Source: Truepera sp. (GTDB taxonomy: Bacteria; Deinococcota; Deinococci; Deinococcales; Trueperaceae). Taken from it: DNA of 64,000 bases. How positions within the stretch are numbered: the stretch's first letter is position 1; the number at the start of each line of letters is the position of its first letter. A program made the translations under genes and the position numbers. The stretch spans positions 172,345 to 236,344 of the forward strand of contig JAVSMU010000001.1 of assembly GCA_032027045.1 (NCBI GenBank). Direction: 5' to 3'. This document shows, piece after piece, positions 43,199 to 49,994 of the stretch. The notes beneath the pieces are model-generated. The model saw only the letters and a program-made list of their open reading frames with translations, searched no databases and was not told where the DNA came from.

Positions 43199-44062
43199 TC
43201 AGCTAGGGGCTTGAGCCGTTCGTCCGGCAATGGCGGGAAGCTTCGTTCCCACCTGCCGTTCGGCATGGTGACGATCGCTCGTGATCGTCACCGACGTCCG
43301 CAGCTCGGCTTCGGGTTTGGCGATCCCGAAGCCTTGCACGTGGCTCGCGCCAAGTGCCTTCAGTGCCTCGCATGCGGACGCATCCTCGACCCCCTCGGCC
43401 ACCACGAACTCGAAACGATCCCGCGCCCTTTGGATGAACTCCTGGGCGCCGTCTCGCAACACCCCCTCCGAGTAGAGAGCCGCGCGAACTACGCTGCGGT
43501 CGAGTTTCACGCCGTCCACCGGAGTGCCGAAGCGTAAGCGGCCGTCCAGGTCGGTGGGCGTGACGTCGTCGAGCAAGACTGCCCCGCAGCGCTCCCTGAG
43601 GACGGCAAGCTGGCGTGCCAGTGCCGGCGACTCCTCGGGTTGCGCCTCCACCACCTCGACGTAGAGCCGCCTCGTCACGCTCTCCAGCATCCCGGTCACC
43701 GTGCACAGCGTCACCGGGAGCAGAAGCTGGCCGGGAGTGAGGTTGATGGACATGCTCACGCCGGGATTCGTGGCCAGTGCTTGCGCCGCGCGCAGGAGGG
43801 TGAAGTGGGTGAACGCCTCCCTACGGCCCGGCGCCAGCCAGTAAGGCAGGATGTCGAGCGGACCCCGAACGGTGCCGTCGGCCAGCCGCCAGCGCACGAG
43901 CGCCTCGGACCAACCGGCCGGAGCGGCCCCAAGGGAGGCGATGGGTTGATAGAAGTGCTGGAGGTCGTCGAGTTCTGGGCTCATCGGGGGAAAGGGAAGC
44001 GCTTGCCGCTGCGGTAGATCGGGCGCCCGGTCGAGCGTGGTCAAGCCGGCAGCGACGACCAT
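43199..44062 (-). CDS. Stand-alone EAL-domain protein (c-di-GMP phosphodiesterase-like)
   Basis: 287 aa. The EAL core is recognisable with the main catalytic-type residues kept: Glu in EALVRW, Asn in SINLTPGQL, Glu in YVEVVE, the Asp pair in LLDDV, Lys in GVKLD, Glu in AEGVED and Gln in VQGFG. Loop 6, normally DFGxGxSS, is replaced by DVTPTDLDG, so activity or dimer coupling may be altered. There is no sensory domain. It starts 10 nt after the secreted-peptide gene and probably shares its promoter. An internal ATG at 43984 is an alternative start. Confidence 0.82.
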   Translation of the reverse strand: MVVAAGLTTLDRAPDLPQRQALPFPPMSPELDDLQHFYQPIASLGAAPAGWSEALVRWRLADGTVRGPLDILPYWLAPGRREAFTHFTLLRAAQALATNPGVSMSINLTPGQLLLPVTLCTVTGMLESVTRRLYVEVVEAQPEESPALARQLAVLRERCGAVLLDDVTPTDLDGRLRFGTPVDGVKLDRSVVRAALYSEGVLRDGAQEFIQRARDRFEFVVAEGVEDASACEALKALGASHVQGFGIAKPEAELRTSVTITSDRHHAERQVGTKLPAIAGRTAQAPS

Positions 44063-44072
44063 GGCAGGTGGC

Positions 44073-44219
44073 TCAGCCGACGTCCCACTCGCCGGGCAGG
44101 TTGCTGGTGCCTGCGAAAACGGCGCTGGACGGCGAGTAGGCGGCGAAACTGCCGGCCGCGAGGCCGGAGACTGCGAGGGTAACGAGGAGAGCGGCGGCGA
44201 TCTTCTTAAGGTTGCGCAT
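44073..44219 (-). CDS. 48-aa secreted peptide (candidate signal peptide pheromone)
   Basis: The gene encodes MRNLKKIAAALLVTLAVSG followed by LAAGSFAAYSPSS and a short acidic end GEWDVG. The first 27 residues form a strong Sec signal with a cleavage site near SFA-A, leaving about 20 residues (YSPSSAVFAGTSN... region). A GGAGGT ribosome site lies 10 nt upstream of the ATG. Upstream is a heptamer-repeat promoter (44250-44283). It is followed by the EAL gene after 10 nt. No cysteines are present. I recognise no family; size, export signal and place beside a TPR regulator suggest a signalling peptide, which is inference. Confidence 0.7.
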   Translation of the reverse strand: MRNLKKIAAALLVTLAVSGLAAGSFAAYSPSSAVFAGTSNLPGEWDVG

Positions 44220-44249: not shown

Positions 44250-44283
44250 AAGTTAATCGAAGGTGCGCTTCAAAGGCGCTTCA
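44250..44283 (-). promoter_or_regulatory. Leftward SARP-type promoter: heptamer direct repeats and -10
   Basis: On the minus strand TGAAGCG occurs at 44283-44277 and again at 44272-44266, an 11-bp period with 4-nt spacer. Exactly 10 bp later comes TAACTT (44255-44250), a TANNNT -10 box. SARP/BTAD activators bind heptameric direct repeats with 11-bp period close to the -10, so this reads as an activated promoter for the secreted-peptide/EAL operon. Confidence 0.6.
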
Positions 44284-44301
44284 CCGGCCGGCGCCGTCGA
44301 G

Positions 44302-44335
44302 TGAAGCGGTGGCGAAGCGCGGCAGCGCCTAGCAT
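44302..44335 (+). promoter_or_regulatory. Rightward SARP-type promoter: heptamer direct repeats and -10
   Basis: On the plus strand TGAAGCG at 44302-44308 and CGAAGCG at 44313-44319 form an 11-bp-period repeat. TAGCAT follows at 44330-44335 after exactly 10 bp. It is the mirror image of the leftward promoter and would drive the 65-aa gene at 44397. Confidence 0.55.
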
Positions 44336-44396: not shown

Positions 44397-44594
44397 ATGG
44401 ATCAAGAACTAGCCCTGCGCCAACTGCAGGCCACCACCTCGTTCACGTTCGTCGGTGACAAGGTCCTGCTGCGCAACACCACGCTTATCGAAGCCGTCGC
44501 CAAACTGCAGCGTCAGGCCGACTTCCCCTTCGCACTGAGCGCCCAACTCGCCGGTATGGCGGTGGGCAAGCAGCCTTCCTCCGCTAGCCACTAG
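44397..44594 (+). CDS. 65-aa protein of unknown function
   Basis: MDQELALRQLQ..., a small soluble protein with no signal peptide or membrane segment, probably mostly helical (TLIEAVAKLQRQ). An ATG at 44385 is also in frame. I prefer 44397 because the 44385 ATG is fused to the GAGAGAAGAGG purine tract that should serve as ribosome site. It has its own promoter candidate (44302-44335) and its own terminator (44634-44656), which supports it being real despite the lack of a recognised family. Confidence 0.6.
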   Translation: MDQELALRQLQATTSFTFVGDKVLLRNTTLIEAVAKLQRQADFPFALSAQLAGMAVGKQPSSASH

Positions 44595-44656: not shown

Positions 44657-44682
44657 AGCCGATCAGTGGCTATCCTGAAGCC

Positions 44683-47148
44683 ATGTGGCTCCCGCGCCTC
44701 GTCAGCGCCATCGAGGGGTCGGACCGCCCGGTCGTCCTGACGGGCGGCGAAGCCTACGGGACGCCCTTCCTCATCGAGGCGTTGAGGGGCCGCCACCCGG
44801 TCGCTTGGTTCGAGGTCGGGCGCGGCGCCGTCGGCGACTCGGTGGCGCAGGGCAACGCGCTCGCGCGCGCCGTCGACGACGCCATAGGTACCCGCCTGCT
44901 CGGGGCGGCGCTGCCGTACAAGGCACATCTGGCCGCCATGCGGCACCACGCCGCAGACATCGGGCCGCTGTGGCTCGCCATGACGACCGAGCTCGTTGAC
45001 GAACCGCTACTGGATGACCTGCTCCAACTCCACGGGGGCGGGTTCAGGGTCCTGCTGGACCTGCGAGGTGAGGCGACGCCCTCCGGCGGGCGGCCCCGGA
45101 ACTCGCTGCCCCGGACCCCGACGGTCCTGGGCCCCGACGAGTTGCGCGTGTCGCTCGAGGAGGCGGAGCTGCTCGTGCCTCGGGCGGTACCGACCGGGCA
45201 GGTAGAGGCCCTGTGGCACGTGGCCGACGGCCGCATAACCGAGCTGCTCAGGCGGGGGAACGACCTGGCGGGTATCCCTGCTCCAACGGTTCCCAGCCCG
45301 GCCGGCGCCCTCGTCGACCCCCAGGACGCGCGGCTCGTGGAGGCGCCGTTGGCGATCCAGGCCCTGCGGCGCGAGGGTGAGTACGTGGCGGCACTGGAAC
45401 TGGCCACACTCAAGGCCCCCGAGTTGGTGGACGATCTCCTCAGGCAGGCTGGGCCGCGTTTCCAGGAGGACGGACTGTTGCTCCGCTTGCACCTGCTCCT
45501 CTCGGCGCTTCCCGAGGAGTACTCGCGCTCGGAGAGGGTGTTGGAATGGCGCCTGGTGGCGGGCTTTGCCGCAGCCGACGTGGCGGACGTGCTGGCGGAC
45601 GTCGACTCCTACCTCGCCGTTCACGTGGCGCCGGAGCTGAGGGCCCGCCGCGCCGGCGCGCTGCCGCTTCAGCAGGGGTTCGAGTTGGCCAAGCAGGCAG
45701 TCGAGGCGCGCCGGACGCCCCTGACCCTGTGGCAGTACGGTCGCCTCCATCCCGACCCCGACGAGGCTCTCAAGGTCCTCCGGGAGTCCGTGCAACTGGC
45801 CGACGACGTGGGGGGACCCTACGACCTGGTGCGTAACGCCGGCATGCTCGTCGCGCGCCTCGGCCGCATGGGGGACTACGCTCAGGCCGCCCGTTGGGCG
45901 CGGTGGACGCTCGACGTCTTCGACAGGGGAGACGTCGTCGACGGCGCCAGGCGGCTCCAGGTCGTGAACGACCTGGCGATGGCCAACATCATGAGCGGTG
46001 ACCTCGTGGGCATGCGTGGCGTGCTCGAGAACGCCCAGGCGCTTGCCGAGGGCAACCTGCCACAGCTGTCCATGTTGTTGCGCGGCACCTTGGCGGCCCT
46101 GGAGCTGGCCGAATCCGACCCACGGGCCGCGCTGGAGCTGGCGTTGGCCAATTACCACGCTAGCCCCAGGCGCGCGCGCGCCATCCACGGTCAACTGCTG
46201 GTTCGCGTGCTGCTCGAGCTCGGCAGGCTCGACGAGGCAAGGCGCGTGGCGGAAGACGTGGTGGGGCTGGCCGAGCAGTCGCGCGGTTACGAGTGGACCG
46301 TCGCGCGCCTCGCGCGCGGCATGGTCGGCGCGGTCTCGCAGGCAGAGGGCGCCGCTGAGGACCTGCTCGACGCGGTGCTGGCCCCGGACCTCGCCGCCGA
46401 GCACCGGTTGAGCGCGGTCCTTCACTACCTGCTTGCCGCCGAAGGCGGCGGGGCCAACCTGCCGCGAGACACCTTGGCCCTCGTGTCGAGCGCCTCGATC
46501 ACGGCGCTAAGGGTCGCTAGTGGTCCCGAAGAGCTCTTCGCGGCGGTCTGGAGCAGCGTCTCCAAGCCCCAGGCGAGCCTGCGCCTGGAGCTCCTGGGAG
46601 AGCCGGTGGCGCGTTACGAGGGCAAGAGCAACCCGCTCCCGCAGCGACTGGCGGAGGTGACCGCCGCCCTGGTGGCCAACCCGGATGGGATCGCCCTCGA
46701 GGCACTCAACGACTACCTCGTGCCCGACGGCCAGGAGCCGTTCACGAAGAGCGGCATGCGCGCCATGATGACCCGCATGCGCAAGTTCTTGCCGGTGAGC
46801 GACGCGCCCTACCGCTTCGCCGTCCCGTTCTCCTCGGACCTGCTCGAGCTGCGCGCCCACCTCGCCAAGCGCGAGGTGCGGCAGGCGGTCGCTTTGTATA
46901 GGAGCGCCCTCGTGCCCCAGAGCCAGGCGCCCGGCTTGGTCGAGGAACGGCTCAACCTGGAAGAGGAACTGCGCCAGGCGGCGCTCGAGGCGCGCGACGC
47001 CGATGCGCTCTTCTCCCTGGCCGAGCGCTTGGCGGACGACCTCGAGTGTTGGGAGGGGGCTGCGGAAGTGCTGTTGCCGAGCGACCCGCGGCTCACGGTG
47101 GCGCGGGCGCGAGTAAGGCGGCTGCGGGAGGCCTATCAGGCGGGCTGA
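44683..47148 (+). CDS. SARP-like regulator with degenerate ATPase domain, TPR repeats and BTAD end
   Basis: 821 aa. Residues 1-about 190 resemble the STAND/MalT-type ATPase region, but the P-loop position reads LTGGEAYGTPFL without the GK(S/T), so ATP binding is doubtful. About 230-620 is helical TPR-like repeat (ALELATLKAPELV, YAQAARWARWTLDVF, RLDEARRVAEDVV). About 640-725 looks like an OmpR-type winged helix (LRLELLGEPVARYEG; RAMMTRMRKFLP). The end (LRAHLAKREVRQAVALYRSALVPQS) is BTAD-like. TATCCT lies 6 nt before the ATG, predicting a leaderless message. It is the obvious candidate to bind the heptamer repeats at 44.25-44.34 kb. Confidence 0.75.
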   Translation: MWLPRLVSAIEGSDRPVVLTGGEAYGTPFLIEALRGRHPVAWFEVGRGAVGDSVAQGNALARAVDDAIGTRLLGAALPYKAHLAAMRHHAADIGPLWLAMTTELVDEPLLDDLLQLHGGGFRVLLDLRGEATPSGGRPRNSLPRTPTVLGPDELRVSLEEAELLVPRAVPTGQVEALWHVADGRITELLRRGNDLAGIPAPTVPSPAGALVDPQDARLVEAPLAIQALRREGEYVAALELATLKAPELVDDLLRQAGPRFQEDGLLLRLHLLLSALPEEYSRSERVLEWRLVAGFAAADVADVLADVDSYLAVHVAPELRARRAGALPLQQGFELAKQAVEARRTPLTLWQYGRLHPDPDEALKVLRESVQLADDVGGPYDLVRNAGMLVARLGRMGDYAQAARWARWTLDVFDRGDVVDGARRLQVVNDLAMANIMSGDLVGMRGVLENAQALAEGNLPQLSMLLRGTLAALELAESDPRAALELALANYHASPRRARAIHGQLLVRVLLELGRLDEARRVAEDVVGLAEQSRGYEWTVARLARGMVGAVSQAEGAAEDLLDAVLAPDLAAEHRLSAVLHYLLAAEGGGANLPRDTLALVSSASITALRVASGPEELFAAVWSSVSKPQASLRLELLGEPVARYEGKSNPLPQRLAEVTAALVANPDGIALEALNDYLVPDGQEPFTKSGMRAMMTRMRKFLPVSDAPYRFAVPFSSDLLELRAHLAKREVRQAVALYRSALVPQSQAPGLVEERLNLEEELRQAALEARDADALFSLAERLADDLECWEGAAEVLLPSDPRLTVARARVRRLREAYQAG

Positions 47149-47342: not shown

Positions 47343-49994
47343 ATGTCGTACGCCAGAATCCTGCTGGCCACTCTGCTAGTGGCCGTGTTGGCCGCCTGTG
47401 GGGGGCCAACCACTCCTCCAGTGCCGCCTAAACCCACCATCAGTGCGGTCACGCCGGCGGTCGCTCCTCGCGGTGGCGCCATCGTAGTCGACGGTGCCGA
47501 CTTCGGCACCAGCGGCAAGCTCATGGTCGGAGGCGTCGAAGCCGTCGTCAGCAGTTGGGCCAACGACAAGATAGAGGCCACGGTGGCAAGCGGCACGCTG
47601 GACGGCTGGCAGGACGTCGTGGTAGAGACGGCCGACGGCACGGACGACTTCTCCCCGTTCTTCGTAGGCGCGGAGTACAGTGGTACCGCGAGCGGCCTTC
47701 AGGCTTTCCTGGACGGGCTCGACAAGGGCACGGCCGTCCTGCTGCAGGCGCAGACGTACGACCTCAGCGCGGAGACCGACGAACTGCTCCTCGACAACCA
47801 CGGGCTTTACGGTCGCGGTGAGACCCAGACGACGGTCAAGCTGTCAAATACCGGCGGTGCTATCGTCCTGTCCGATTGGGGCGCGACCGTGACGATCGCG
47901 GATCTCGCGATCGAAGGCGACTTCATCGCCTTCTTCCACGGCAACGCGGTCAAGACACTCGCGACGCTCAGTTCGAACATGCTTACTGCCATGCCGTTGA
48001 ACGAGGCCATGGTGACCCGCACCATCTCCCCACCACAGCCGTCCGGGATGACCGATGCTTGGAGCACGGAGACGTTCTCCGAACTCGGATCCCCGGTTGA
48101 CGTCGTCTCATCGCCGGGAGCGCTCACCACGACCACCAGGGCACCCCGGGTATTCACTGCCAAGGCGTTGGCTCACGCACCCGAGGTCGCACTCGAGCCC
48201 GCCGGCCTTTCGACGCCGAAGATTACCTTGCAAAACGTCAGCTACTCGGATGTCTTGGGCGGCGGGTCCTTCGGCTTTCCGATGTTCTTGATCCCCACGC
48301 TCGACATCACACTGACCGACGTCACCATCGATGCCGGAGACAGCACAGTGGCCCTGTTCTCCGGCCGCAATGTGACGCTCGAGCGGGTCGACGTCACCTC
48401 GGACCTGGCTTGGGTCGGGTCGTATGGGGGGACGCTAACGGTGCAGGACTCGACAGTAGAGTCGGCGACCAACGTCTATCTCTTGGCTGAGGCTGGGATG
48501 AAGGTGAACGGCTCCACGGTTCGTGCGGCCGACGGGATGATCGATGTCGTCGGGGCCGCAAGCGCCTTCTTTGGCGGCGGCACGGATCCCACTGGTGGAT
48601 TCATAGAGTTCGTCGGCAGCACCATCGAGGCGCTCGACGGCAACCTGGCCGACGGCACCGTAAACGGGTTCATGATCTTCGAGACGCAGTTCGCGCCAAT
48701 CAGCCTGACCGATAACGTCCTCATCCGCTCGCACGACGCGACGGTCATAATCACGCAACAGAGCTTTAACGGCGAGGGTGACATCACGCTCGCGGGCAAC
48801 GGCGACGTGCGAGCGGGCGTGTTCAAGAGTGAAGATCCCGTCAACTTCCGCTCCGGTGAGATCTATGTCTACACCGGAGGCGGCGGGTCGCTCGCAGACG
48901 TCGTCAGGCTCGAGGGCAACACTATGGCTGCCACGGCTACGCTCGTGGTCGACCTGAGCGGCAGTTCGAGCCCGGGCTTCCTTTCAGCGAGCCACAACAC
49001 GTTGACCGCGGGAGACGGCGAGAACGACGGCCTCTTACAGTTGATCGCCGGCGCTACGGGCCAGTTGAGTTTGGAGGATAATGTCGTCTCGGCTGACGGG
49101 ACGATCGTTTTCGTGGCGCCAGACCTGTCGGGAACTACCGCCGTGCTGGCAGGTAACACCATCTCGGCCGTCGGTGCAGGGTCACCTGCGGTCATCTCAC
49201 AGTTGAACGGTGGGTCTTGCGAGATGGCCGGGAACACTTTCGAGGCCGAGGACATAACTGCGGTCAACCCCGCCGTGGTGTTCCTGATATGCACCGGTGC
49301 CGACCCACTCGTGGACACCTTCACGGTTACGGGCAACACCATGACTACTAGCGGTAACGGCGGCTCGAGCTTGCTGACGCTGTTCAGCGCCGGCGAGTTG
49401 ACCATGGCCTCCAATCAGGTAGCTACGGAGGCGACGTTCCAGGTGACGGCGGCTGACGTCGGCGTGGTCTCCGCGAACGACATCCAACTAGAGGACGGCT
49501 ACTGGATAGTGTCAGGCGGCTCCTCGAGCGATCTGACGGTCGATGCGAACGTTGTCACTTGCGAGGACCCGATCGCCTACGGCCTGTTTGTCTCCGGTGT
49601 CGGGAACACTGTCGTGACAGGCAACGAGTTCACCGTCAACGGCACGCCGGCTCCCTCCGCCGTCGCGCTCGCGTTTGCCACCAGCGGCGCACCCATCACG
49701 GTCGCCGCCAGCGGCAACACTTTCACCAACTTCAGCCGCGCGCTCTACGTCGCCGACCAAGCCACAACGGCCTGGGGCATCACGGCCACGGTCGAGGACA
49801 ACGTCTTCGACTTCCCCATCGACGCGGCGCCGAAAGCCGCCGAGCTTTTCAACGTGAAGAGCGCGATCGACGCCCGCAACAACCAGTGGGGCACGAACAC
49901 GAGCGCCGCCACGGTGACCACCTACGTCACCCTCAGCGGTGACACCGTGGCACAGGGGGGCAGCATCCTACTGAATCCGATCACCTTGCCCTGA
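47343..49994 (+). CDS. Surface lipoprotein with IPT/TIG domain and parallel beta-helix
   Basis: 883 aa. The lipoprotein signal ends LAAC with Cys19 as lipid site. Residues about 30-110 fit an IPT/TIG immunoglobulin-like domain (PTISAVTPAVAPRGGAIVVDGADFG; DVVVETADGTDDF). Residues about 115-880 are repeats of short strands with regularly spaced Asn, Asp, Val and Thr (SGNTFTNF, AGNTISAV, TGNTMTTS, LEGNTMAA). These are the ladder pattern of a right-handed beta-helix. It is exported and anchored, possibly an adhesin or polysaccharide-binding or -cleaving protein, but no catalytic motif is evident. Base composition is less GC-rich than its surroundings. Confidence 0.8.
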   Translation: MSYARILLATLLVAVLAACGGPTTPPVPPKPTISAVTPAVAPRGGAIVVDGADFGTSGKLMVGGVEAVVSSWANDKIEATVASGTLDGWQDVVVETADGTDDFSPFFVGAEYSGTASGLQAFLDGLDKGTAVLLQAQTYDLSAETDELLLDNHGLYGRGETQTTVKLSNTGGAIVLSDWGATVTIADLAIEGDFIAFFHGNAVKTLATLSSNMLTAMPLNEAMVTRTISPPQPSGMTDAWSTETFSELGSPVDVVSSPGALTTTTRAPRVFTAKALAHAPEVALEPAGLSTPKITLQNVSYSDVLGGGSFGFPMFLIPTLDITLTDVTIDAGDSTVALFSGRNVTLERVDVTSDLAWVGSYGGTLTVQDSTVESATNVYLLAEAGMKVNGSTVRAADGMIDVVGAASAFFGGGTDPTGGFIEFVGSTIEALDGNLADGTVNGFMIFETQFAPISLTDNVLIRSHDATVIITQQSFNGEGDITLAGNGDVRAGVFKSEDPVNFRSGEIYVYTGGGGSLADVVRLEGNTMAATATLVVDLSGSSSPGFLSASHNTLTAGDGENDGLLQLIAGATGQLSLEDNVVSADGTIVFVAPDLSGTTAVLAGNTISAVGAGSPAVISQLNGGSCEMAGNTFEAEDITAVNPAVVFLICTGADPLVDTFTVTGNTMTTSGNGGSSLLTLFSAGELTMASNQVATEATFQVTAADVGVVSANDIQLEDGYWIVSGGSSSDLTVDANVVTCEDPIAYGLFVSGVGNTVVTGNEFTVNGTPAPSAVALAFATSGAPITVAASGNTFTNFSRALYVADQATTAWGITATVEDNVFDFPIDAAPKAAELFNVKSAIDARNNQWGTNTSAATVTTYVTLSGDTVAQGGSILLNPITLP

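Follow-up and report, generated by a model that had tools for sequence, protein, structure and literature searches.

What drives the two tiny genes that diverge from a short intergenic region of Truepera sp., an uncultured relative of the radiation-resistant bacterium Truepera, and are they part of a circuit with the large regulator gene beside them? We address this in a window of 64,000 nucleotides, the whole stretch of DNA that was analysed. An initial annotation, made from the sequence alone, had proposed mirror-image promoters of the kind bound by SARP/BTAD activators. The features concerned are as follows.

43199-43984, minus strand: predicted EAL-domain c-di-GMP phosphodiesterase (Pfam EAL, 3.9e-20; start uncertain, 43984 or 44062).
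44073-44219, minus strand: candidate pheromone precursor MRNLKKIAAALLVTLAVSGLAAGSFAAYSPSSAVFAGTSNLPGEWDVG, a secreted pre-peptide of 48 aa, with the Shine-Dalgarno sequence GGAGG before its ATG.
44250-44283, minus strand: leftward SARP-type promoter, TGAAGCG-CCTT-TGAAGCG-10 bp-TAACTT, repeat 7/7 (TGAAGCG 44283-44277, CCTT, TGAAGCG 44272-44266, 10 bp 44265-44256, TAACTT 44255-44250).
44302-44335, plus strand: rightward SARP-type promoter, TGAAGCG-GTGG-CGAAGCG-10 bp-TAGCAT, repeat 6/7 (TGAAGCG 44302-44308, GTGG, CGAAGCG 44313-44319, 10 bp 44320-44329, TAGCAT 44330-44335).
44397-44594, plus strand: 65-aa protein (MDQELALRQLQATTSFTFVGDKVLLRNTTLIEAVAKLQ...), no recognised family.
44671-44676, plus strand: TATCCT, −10 box of the regulator gene, 6 nt 5′ of the regulator ATG.
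44683-47148, plus strand: 821-aa regulator, with domains from its predicted fold (AlphaFold): STAND-like N-terminus without P-loop, ~1-215; TPR superhelix, ~220-612; SARP-like DNA-binding and BTA domains, ~632-821.

A direct reading of the sequence reproduces base by base the layout described in the initial annotation, with two heptamer pairs of 11-bp period, each 10 bp before an outward TANNNT box, in half-regions of 34 bp. Both promoters have a −10 box and no −35 box. If the first base of TANNNT is placed at −12, the pair of 11-bp units spans −40 to −19, with its centre at −29.5. The gap of 6 bp between this 22-bp box and the −10 box is the same as for the afs box, which is located at −40 to −19 (PMC10936776), and repeats that replace the −35 element at this position are a hallmark of SARP activation (PMC10936776). 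The distance from the 3′ heptamer to the −10 element is 10 bp in the TGAAGCG register, which agrees with the ~8 bp of SARP promoters, a value that depends on the register. Chance as the origin of the repeats is ruled out by shuffle statistics, given that, when this intergenic region was shuffled 5000 times with its dinucleotides preserved, both sides reached at least 6/7 just once.

Are these promoters maintained in evolution? We compared the orthologous regions between the pre-peptide and 65-aa genes from 16 Trueperaceae genomes in nine genera, i.e., 32 outward promoters, and asked of each whether its heptamers repeat to 6/7 or better at period 11, with TANNNT exactly 10 bp on. By this test 27 of the 32 promoters pass, as compared to a mean of 0.04 and a maximum of 1 in 300 rounds of shuffling. 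The right side of genome G010 is a register artefact that arises from the back of its left heptamers, and the count by hand is 26; in G002 and G005 the right-hand spacer is 9 bp when read in the TGAAGCG register. When period and spacing were varied in a grid, the signal appeared at period 11 alone, the other periods from 7 to 16 giving zero or one, and the optimal spacing was 10. The direct repeats of SARP-type promoters have a period of 11 or 22 bp, with which this result agrees. Heptamers, period and spacing are kept in eight of the nine genera. The right promoter persists in most orthologous regions and the left one in every sampled genus except that of G034, whose intergenic region has no convincing heptamer pair, though the tandem peptide gene is present.

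The promoters also appear to be confined to this locus. NGAAGCG-N4-NGAAGCG occurs seven times in the organism's own genome, with TANNNT at the right distance in these two cases alone, and in nine genomes searched, no sequence outside the locus comes within two mismatches of the full pattern. Thus, the alignment and the genome scan that the initial annotation had suggested as checks both come out in its favour, and its notion of a self-contained regulon, with a secreted peptide and an EAL protein on one side and a 65-aa protein on the other, holds at the level of sequence. A larger regulon with the same heptamer was considered and rejected, as the residual matches have three mismatches and are no commoner than those of a reversed-pattern control.

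With respect to the regulator, a full-length model was built from 17 relatives (mean pLDDT 89.5, AlphaFold). The fold search with this model was dominated by TPR proteins, and for this reason the C-terminal domain was folded alone. The last 200 residues, modelled separately at a pLDDT of 92.9, are matched by AfsR as seen in its transcription complex (Z 15.7 over 190 residues, rmsd 4.2; a second entry has Z 15.2) and by EmbR (Z 13.8), in alignments that span 188-194 residues, while the next matches are single winged-helix domains with Z of at most 7.7. Because of the AfsR and EmbR matches we assign a SARP fold to the C-terminus of the regulator, an assignment that is well supported by the predicted structure: it has an OmpR-type DNA-binding domain followed by a BTA domain, as is expected of a SARP. 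In the SARP family, however, this domain is N-terminal, whereas here it occupies residues ~632-821 of 821, a point that the initial annotation overlooked. Its description of the 821-aa neighbour as BTAD-like is borne out by the fold but hardly by Pfam, which in the window regulator finds weak TPRs alone and no Trans_reg_C or BTAD. Among 20 relatives, BTAD turns up in three (best 0.011) and the best value for Trans_reg_C is 8.6e-05, in one relative, none above the cut-off, and a sequence-profile search of the PDB found no SARP. Taken together, promoter conservation and the SARP-like fold of the neighbour support the reading as divergent SARP-type promoters, and we regard both the promoter architecture and the fold as well supported.

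The TPR part (~245-604) has its best fold matches in Rap-CSF (Z 23.2) and the phage phi3T Rap with pheromones (22-23), and also in MalT domain III (22.9) and NprR-NprX (19.2). Since unrelated TPR proteins score Z 20-21.6 in the same list, the likeness to Rap is not specific, and we treat it as a resemblance of the predicted structure rather than as proof. The N-terminus resembles a STAND ATPase, but GGExYGxPFL stands in the place of the P-loop and the Walker A lysine is absent. Directly 3′ of the regulator, at 47343-49994 of the window, lies the gene for a secreted protein of 883 aa, which contains IPT/TIG regions as well as right-handed beta-helix regions.

Does the regulator bind the heptamers next to it? 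All twelve regulators examined that have TGAAGCG or TGGAGCG sites carry T-R-[L/M]-R in the recognition helix, while the site TTCAACG in G010 pairs with S-H-L-R and the site CGGYAAC on the left side of G017, where a third copy (CGGTCAC) lies one 11-bp step farther upstream, pairs with S-R-L-R. Heptamer and recognition helix thus vary in parallel, pointing to the neighbour as the predicted binder. Because of this covariation and the afs-box-like position of the repeats, we consider it very likely that the neighbouring TPR-SARP protein binds the heptamers, and only slightly less so that it activates rather than represses. Its own start region contains no heptamers. Instead, TATCNT is found immediately 5′ of the start codon in most orthologs, and as TATCCT here lies only 6 nt 5′ of the ATG, the regulator gene probably has a leaderless promoter without heptamers.

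The pre-peptide has a hydrophobic N-terminus, its secretion being assigned by eye, and conservation favours the 48-aa start at 44219, a minor correction. Both its length and its C-terminus are conserved among orthologs, the latter as approximately S-[N/S/G]-[Q/L]-x-x-[D/E]-x-D-x-G (SNLPGEWDVG here). It occurs in 16 of 111 genomes of the class, once each and at this locus alone, with dN/dS below 1 in four pairs. An adjacent small secreted pre-peptide of this sort is what is expected of an RRNPP system. G027 has two copies of the C-terminal unit, and in G034 a 33-bp unit encoding DSGGLVVPDVG is repeated in 5.4 tandem copies up to the contig end; the assembly probably broke within this array (L119:5395-5571, also L014), which runs off the contig. 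The G017 peptide lacks the common C-terminal motif, ends in RPGNGGGDVCRTSVSSTR and has no EAL gene adjacent. In that genome, the peptide and 65-aa genes are found past the 3′ end of the regulator gene, not before it (L083:3132-3580; G017:C1:1462100-1462600). The conserved C-terminus and tandem units, which give the peptide the look of a pheromone precursor, escaped the initial annotation, as did the likeness of the TPR part to the peptide receptors Rap and NprR.

The EAL gene follows the peptide gene on the minus strand, and its product has the signature residues EALVR, INL, EVVE, DD, KLD and AEGVE, as judged by eye. An EAL protein was also found beside the peptide in six further genomes checked (G004, G005, G009, G010, G018 and G019), while none was seen beside the locus in G017. 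On the other side, conservation favours the start at 44397 for the 65-aa gene, again a minor correction. This protein is present in 18 of 111 genomes of the class (E < 1e-8), one copy each and always at this locus, and has dN/dS below 1 in two pairs; Pfam and NCBIfam gave no match above chance. It is perhaps a cytoplasmic feedback partner of the regulator. The peptide gene, the 65-aa gene and the regulator, whose orthologs are found in the same family, co-occur and are adjacent.

We think that these observations are best explained, with a fair degree of probability, by a self-contained SARP-activated peptide-signalling module that consists of a pheromone, a TPR-SARP receptor and an EAL output. 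Copies of the 821-aa protein would sit next to one another on each heptamer pair, in the manner of AfsR on its 22-bp box, and recruit RNA polymerase to the two promoters, which have a −10 box without a −35 box. The leftward transcript would yield the secreted pre-peptide and the EAL c-di-GMP phosphodiesterase, and the rightward transcript the 65-aa protein in the cytoplasm. The circuit would close as a feedback loop if the secreted peptide is sensed by the TPR-SARP regulator, for which we see about an even chance; any purpose assigned to such a loop is more tentative than that. The peptide reading is supported by peptide-type permease genes, which lie 3′ of the regulator in G019 and 3′ of a paralogous regulator in G006. 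Counting against the explanation as a whole are the tandem peptide of G034 without recognisable heptamers, the G017 peptide with neither motif nor EAL neighbour, the unspecific resemblance to Rap, the Pfam SARP/BTAD matches below the cut-off and the existence of Pho-box-like sites that share the geometry.

It is also conceivable, though we consider it unlikely, that the same SARP-type switch senses an intracellular cue and that the peptide is an output alone (a bacteriocin, an envelope peptide or a matrix component), co-regulated with the EAL and 65-aa genes. Relatives of the regulator adjoin radical SAM/SPASM peptide maturases with similar promoters, which means that the family can control product peptides, and for AfsR, the fold relative, modulation by kinases rather than peptides has been reported (PMC10936776). 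However, the module contains no maturase, immunity or dedicated exporter gene, the same single-copy gene set is kept in nine genera, and the tandem short units resemble pheromone precursors, in which duplicated units are known (PMC11343458).

Two further readings, both of them improbable in our view, concern the binding event itself. The heptamers may be bound by an OmpR/PhoB-type response regulator whose gene lies elsewhere, with the TPR-SARP protein next to them acting on other targets. Such response regulators likewise use 11-bp direct repeats at this promoter position, one probable PhoB-type site of this geometry precedes a PstS-like gene, and the lack of heptamers before the regulator gene would fit. 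Against this, the motif is confined to one locus in the nine genomes searched, it varies along with the recognition helix of the neighbour, and the peptide gene, the 65-aa gene and the regulator stay together. Alternatively, the regulator may repress both promoters, with the peptide or another ligand relieving or enforcing the repression. The sign of regulation is not readable from sequence, and binding across the −35 region can obstruct the polymerase as well, but the repeats lie at the activating position of AfsR, in place of the −35 element (PMC10936776).

How does the activated peptide-signalling module that we favour relate to known systems? It shares with AfsR-afsS of Streptomyces the SARP fold, the two direct repeats before the −10 box, a TPR part within the same protein and a small-protein gene as target. 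It differs in the order of domains, in a STAND-like part without P-loop, in having a secreted peptide and an EAL enzyme among its targets, and in its phylum, Deinococcota. As in RRNPP/RRNPPA systems (Rap-Phr, NprR-NprX, Rgg-SHP, AimR-AimP), a secreted pre-peptide adjoins a cytoplasmic TPR protein and peptide units are duplicated in tandem; Rap and NprR are among the best matches of the TPR superhelix, with other TPR proteins scoring close. In RRNPP signalling the mature peptide leaves the cell, is re-imported and binds the receptor, as it would in the module proposed here. RRNPP receptors, however, are 250-500 aa long with an N-terminal HTH or none (PMC10075063), while the receptor here has 821 aa and a C-terminal SARP domain; a large RRNPP survey covered Bacillota and viruses alone (PMC10075063). 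The protein thus falls outside the classic SARPs because of its domain order and outside RRNPP because of receptor size and domain type, and the locus would work as a SARP promoter does and, with less certainty, in the manner of RRNPP signalling. MalT and the large ATP-binding LuxR-type (STAND) regulators have in common with it a STAND-like N-terminus, a TPR superhelix and a C-terminal DNA-binding domain, but here the Walker A lysine is missing and a SARP domain replaces the LuxR HTH. Pho boxes also consist of 11-bp direct repeats in place of the −35 element, but they are bound by receiver-domain response regulators and have no link to a TPR-SARP gene. Deinococcus is known to possess a SARP-type response regulator, but that protein includes a receiver domain (PMC3564903). 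The open-access literature gave us nothing relevant on Deinococcota with respect to peptide signalling or regulators of the TPR-SARP type.

Many relatives retain the module, which has the appearance of a peptide-signalling circuit that had not been recognised before. To our knowledge, most documented cases of peptide signalling through cytoplasmic TPR receptors come from Bacillota and their phages, and SARPs have been described almost solely as antibiotic regulators of Actinobacteria. If true, a conserved Deinococcota module that joins the two would extend both fields, suggest a class of ligands for TPR-bearing SARPs, and give Deinococcota a route from cell density to c-di-GMP. The broadest version is a peptide-pheromone quorum-sensing family in Deinococcota, with a secreted pre-peptide, a receptor that joins TPRs to a SARP domain at its C-terminus, divergent SARP promoters that make the circuit self-contained, cell density coupled to c-di-GMP breakdown, and Truepera and Thermus paralogues that would act through other heptamers on radical-SAM peptide clusters. 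We hold this to be a little short of an even bet.

At paralogue loci, the same promoter form was found 20 times at period 11 and spacing 10 against a background of ~5-10, and perfect repeats 8 times against ~1-2, though period 10 gave 5. As this enrichment over other periods is about two- to fourfold, single matches are suggestive and serve as leads only. In Truepera sp. CROMO_A_191 (L101:7593-12400), a paralogous TPR-SARP gene is accompanied by a radical SAM/SPASM maturase and then a 44-aa secreted peptide ending in RVDTAIIPMTVCQLTSH; the same stretch holds an MFS protein, an M16 peptidase and promoters with AGGTTGC and GGCAACC heptamers, the AGGTTGC pairs lying 5′ of the radical SAM/SPASM gene. 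This is possibly an undescribed RiPP cluster. In Thermus (L112:835-5900, L113:5867, L116:10454), SARP-like genes lie near radical SAM genes, with promoters of the form CGTAACC-N4-CGTAACC-10-TACCCT; CGTAACC pairs are found 3′ of the regulator, a similar pair is found 5′ of a TIGR04463-like maturase, and L112 has a possible short precursor, MLKEVQEVKVGGRTRRVYVKPFA.

In two genera, genes for an SBP_bac_5 peptide-type binding protein and permease lie directly 3′ of the TPR-SARP gene (L124:9305-12958 and L108:7655-11386). At L107:5764, CCATGAC-N4-CCATGAC, with a 10-bp spacer to TAGCCT, precedes a PstS-like gene; it is probably a Pho box with the same geometry. Finally, at L105:7666-7850 a heptamer promoter just 3′ of a paralogous regulator is followed by a leaderless 47-aa secreted ORF ending in CSRFGDEF, and this ORF and its regulator are possibly another peptide-receptor pair.
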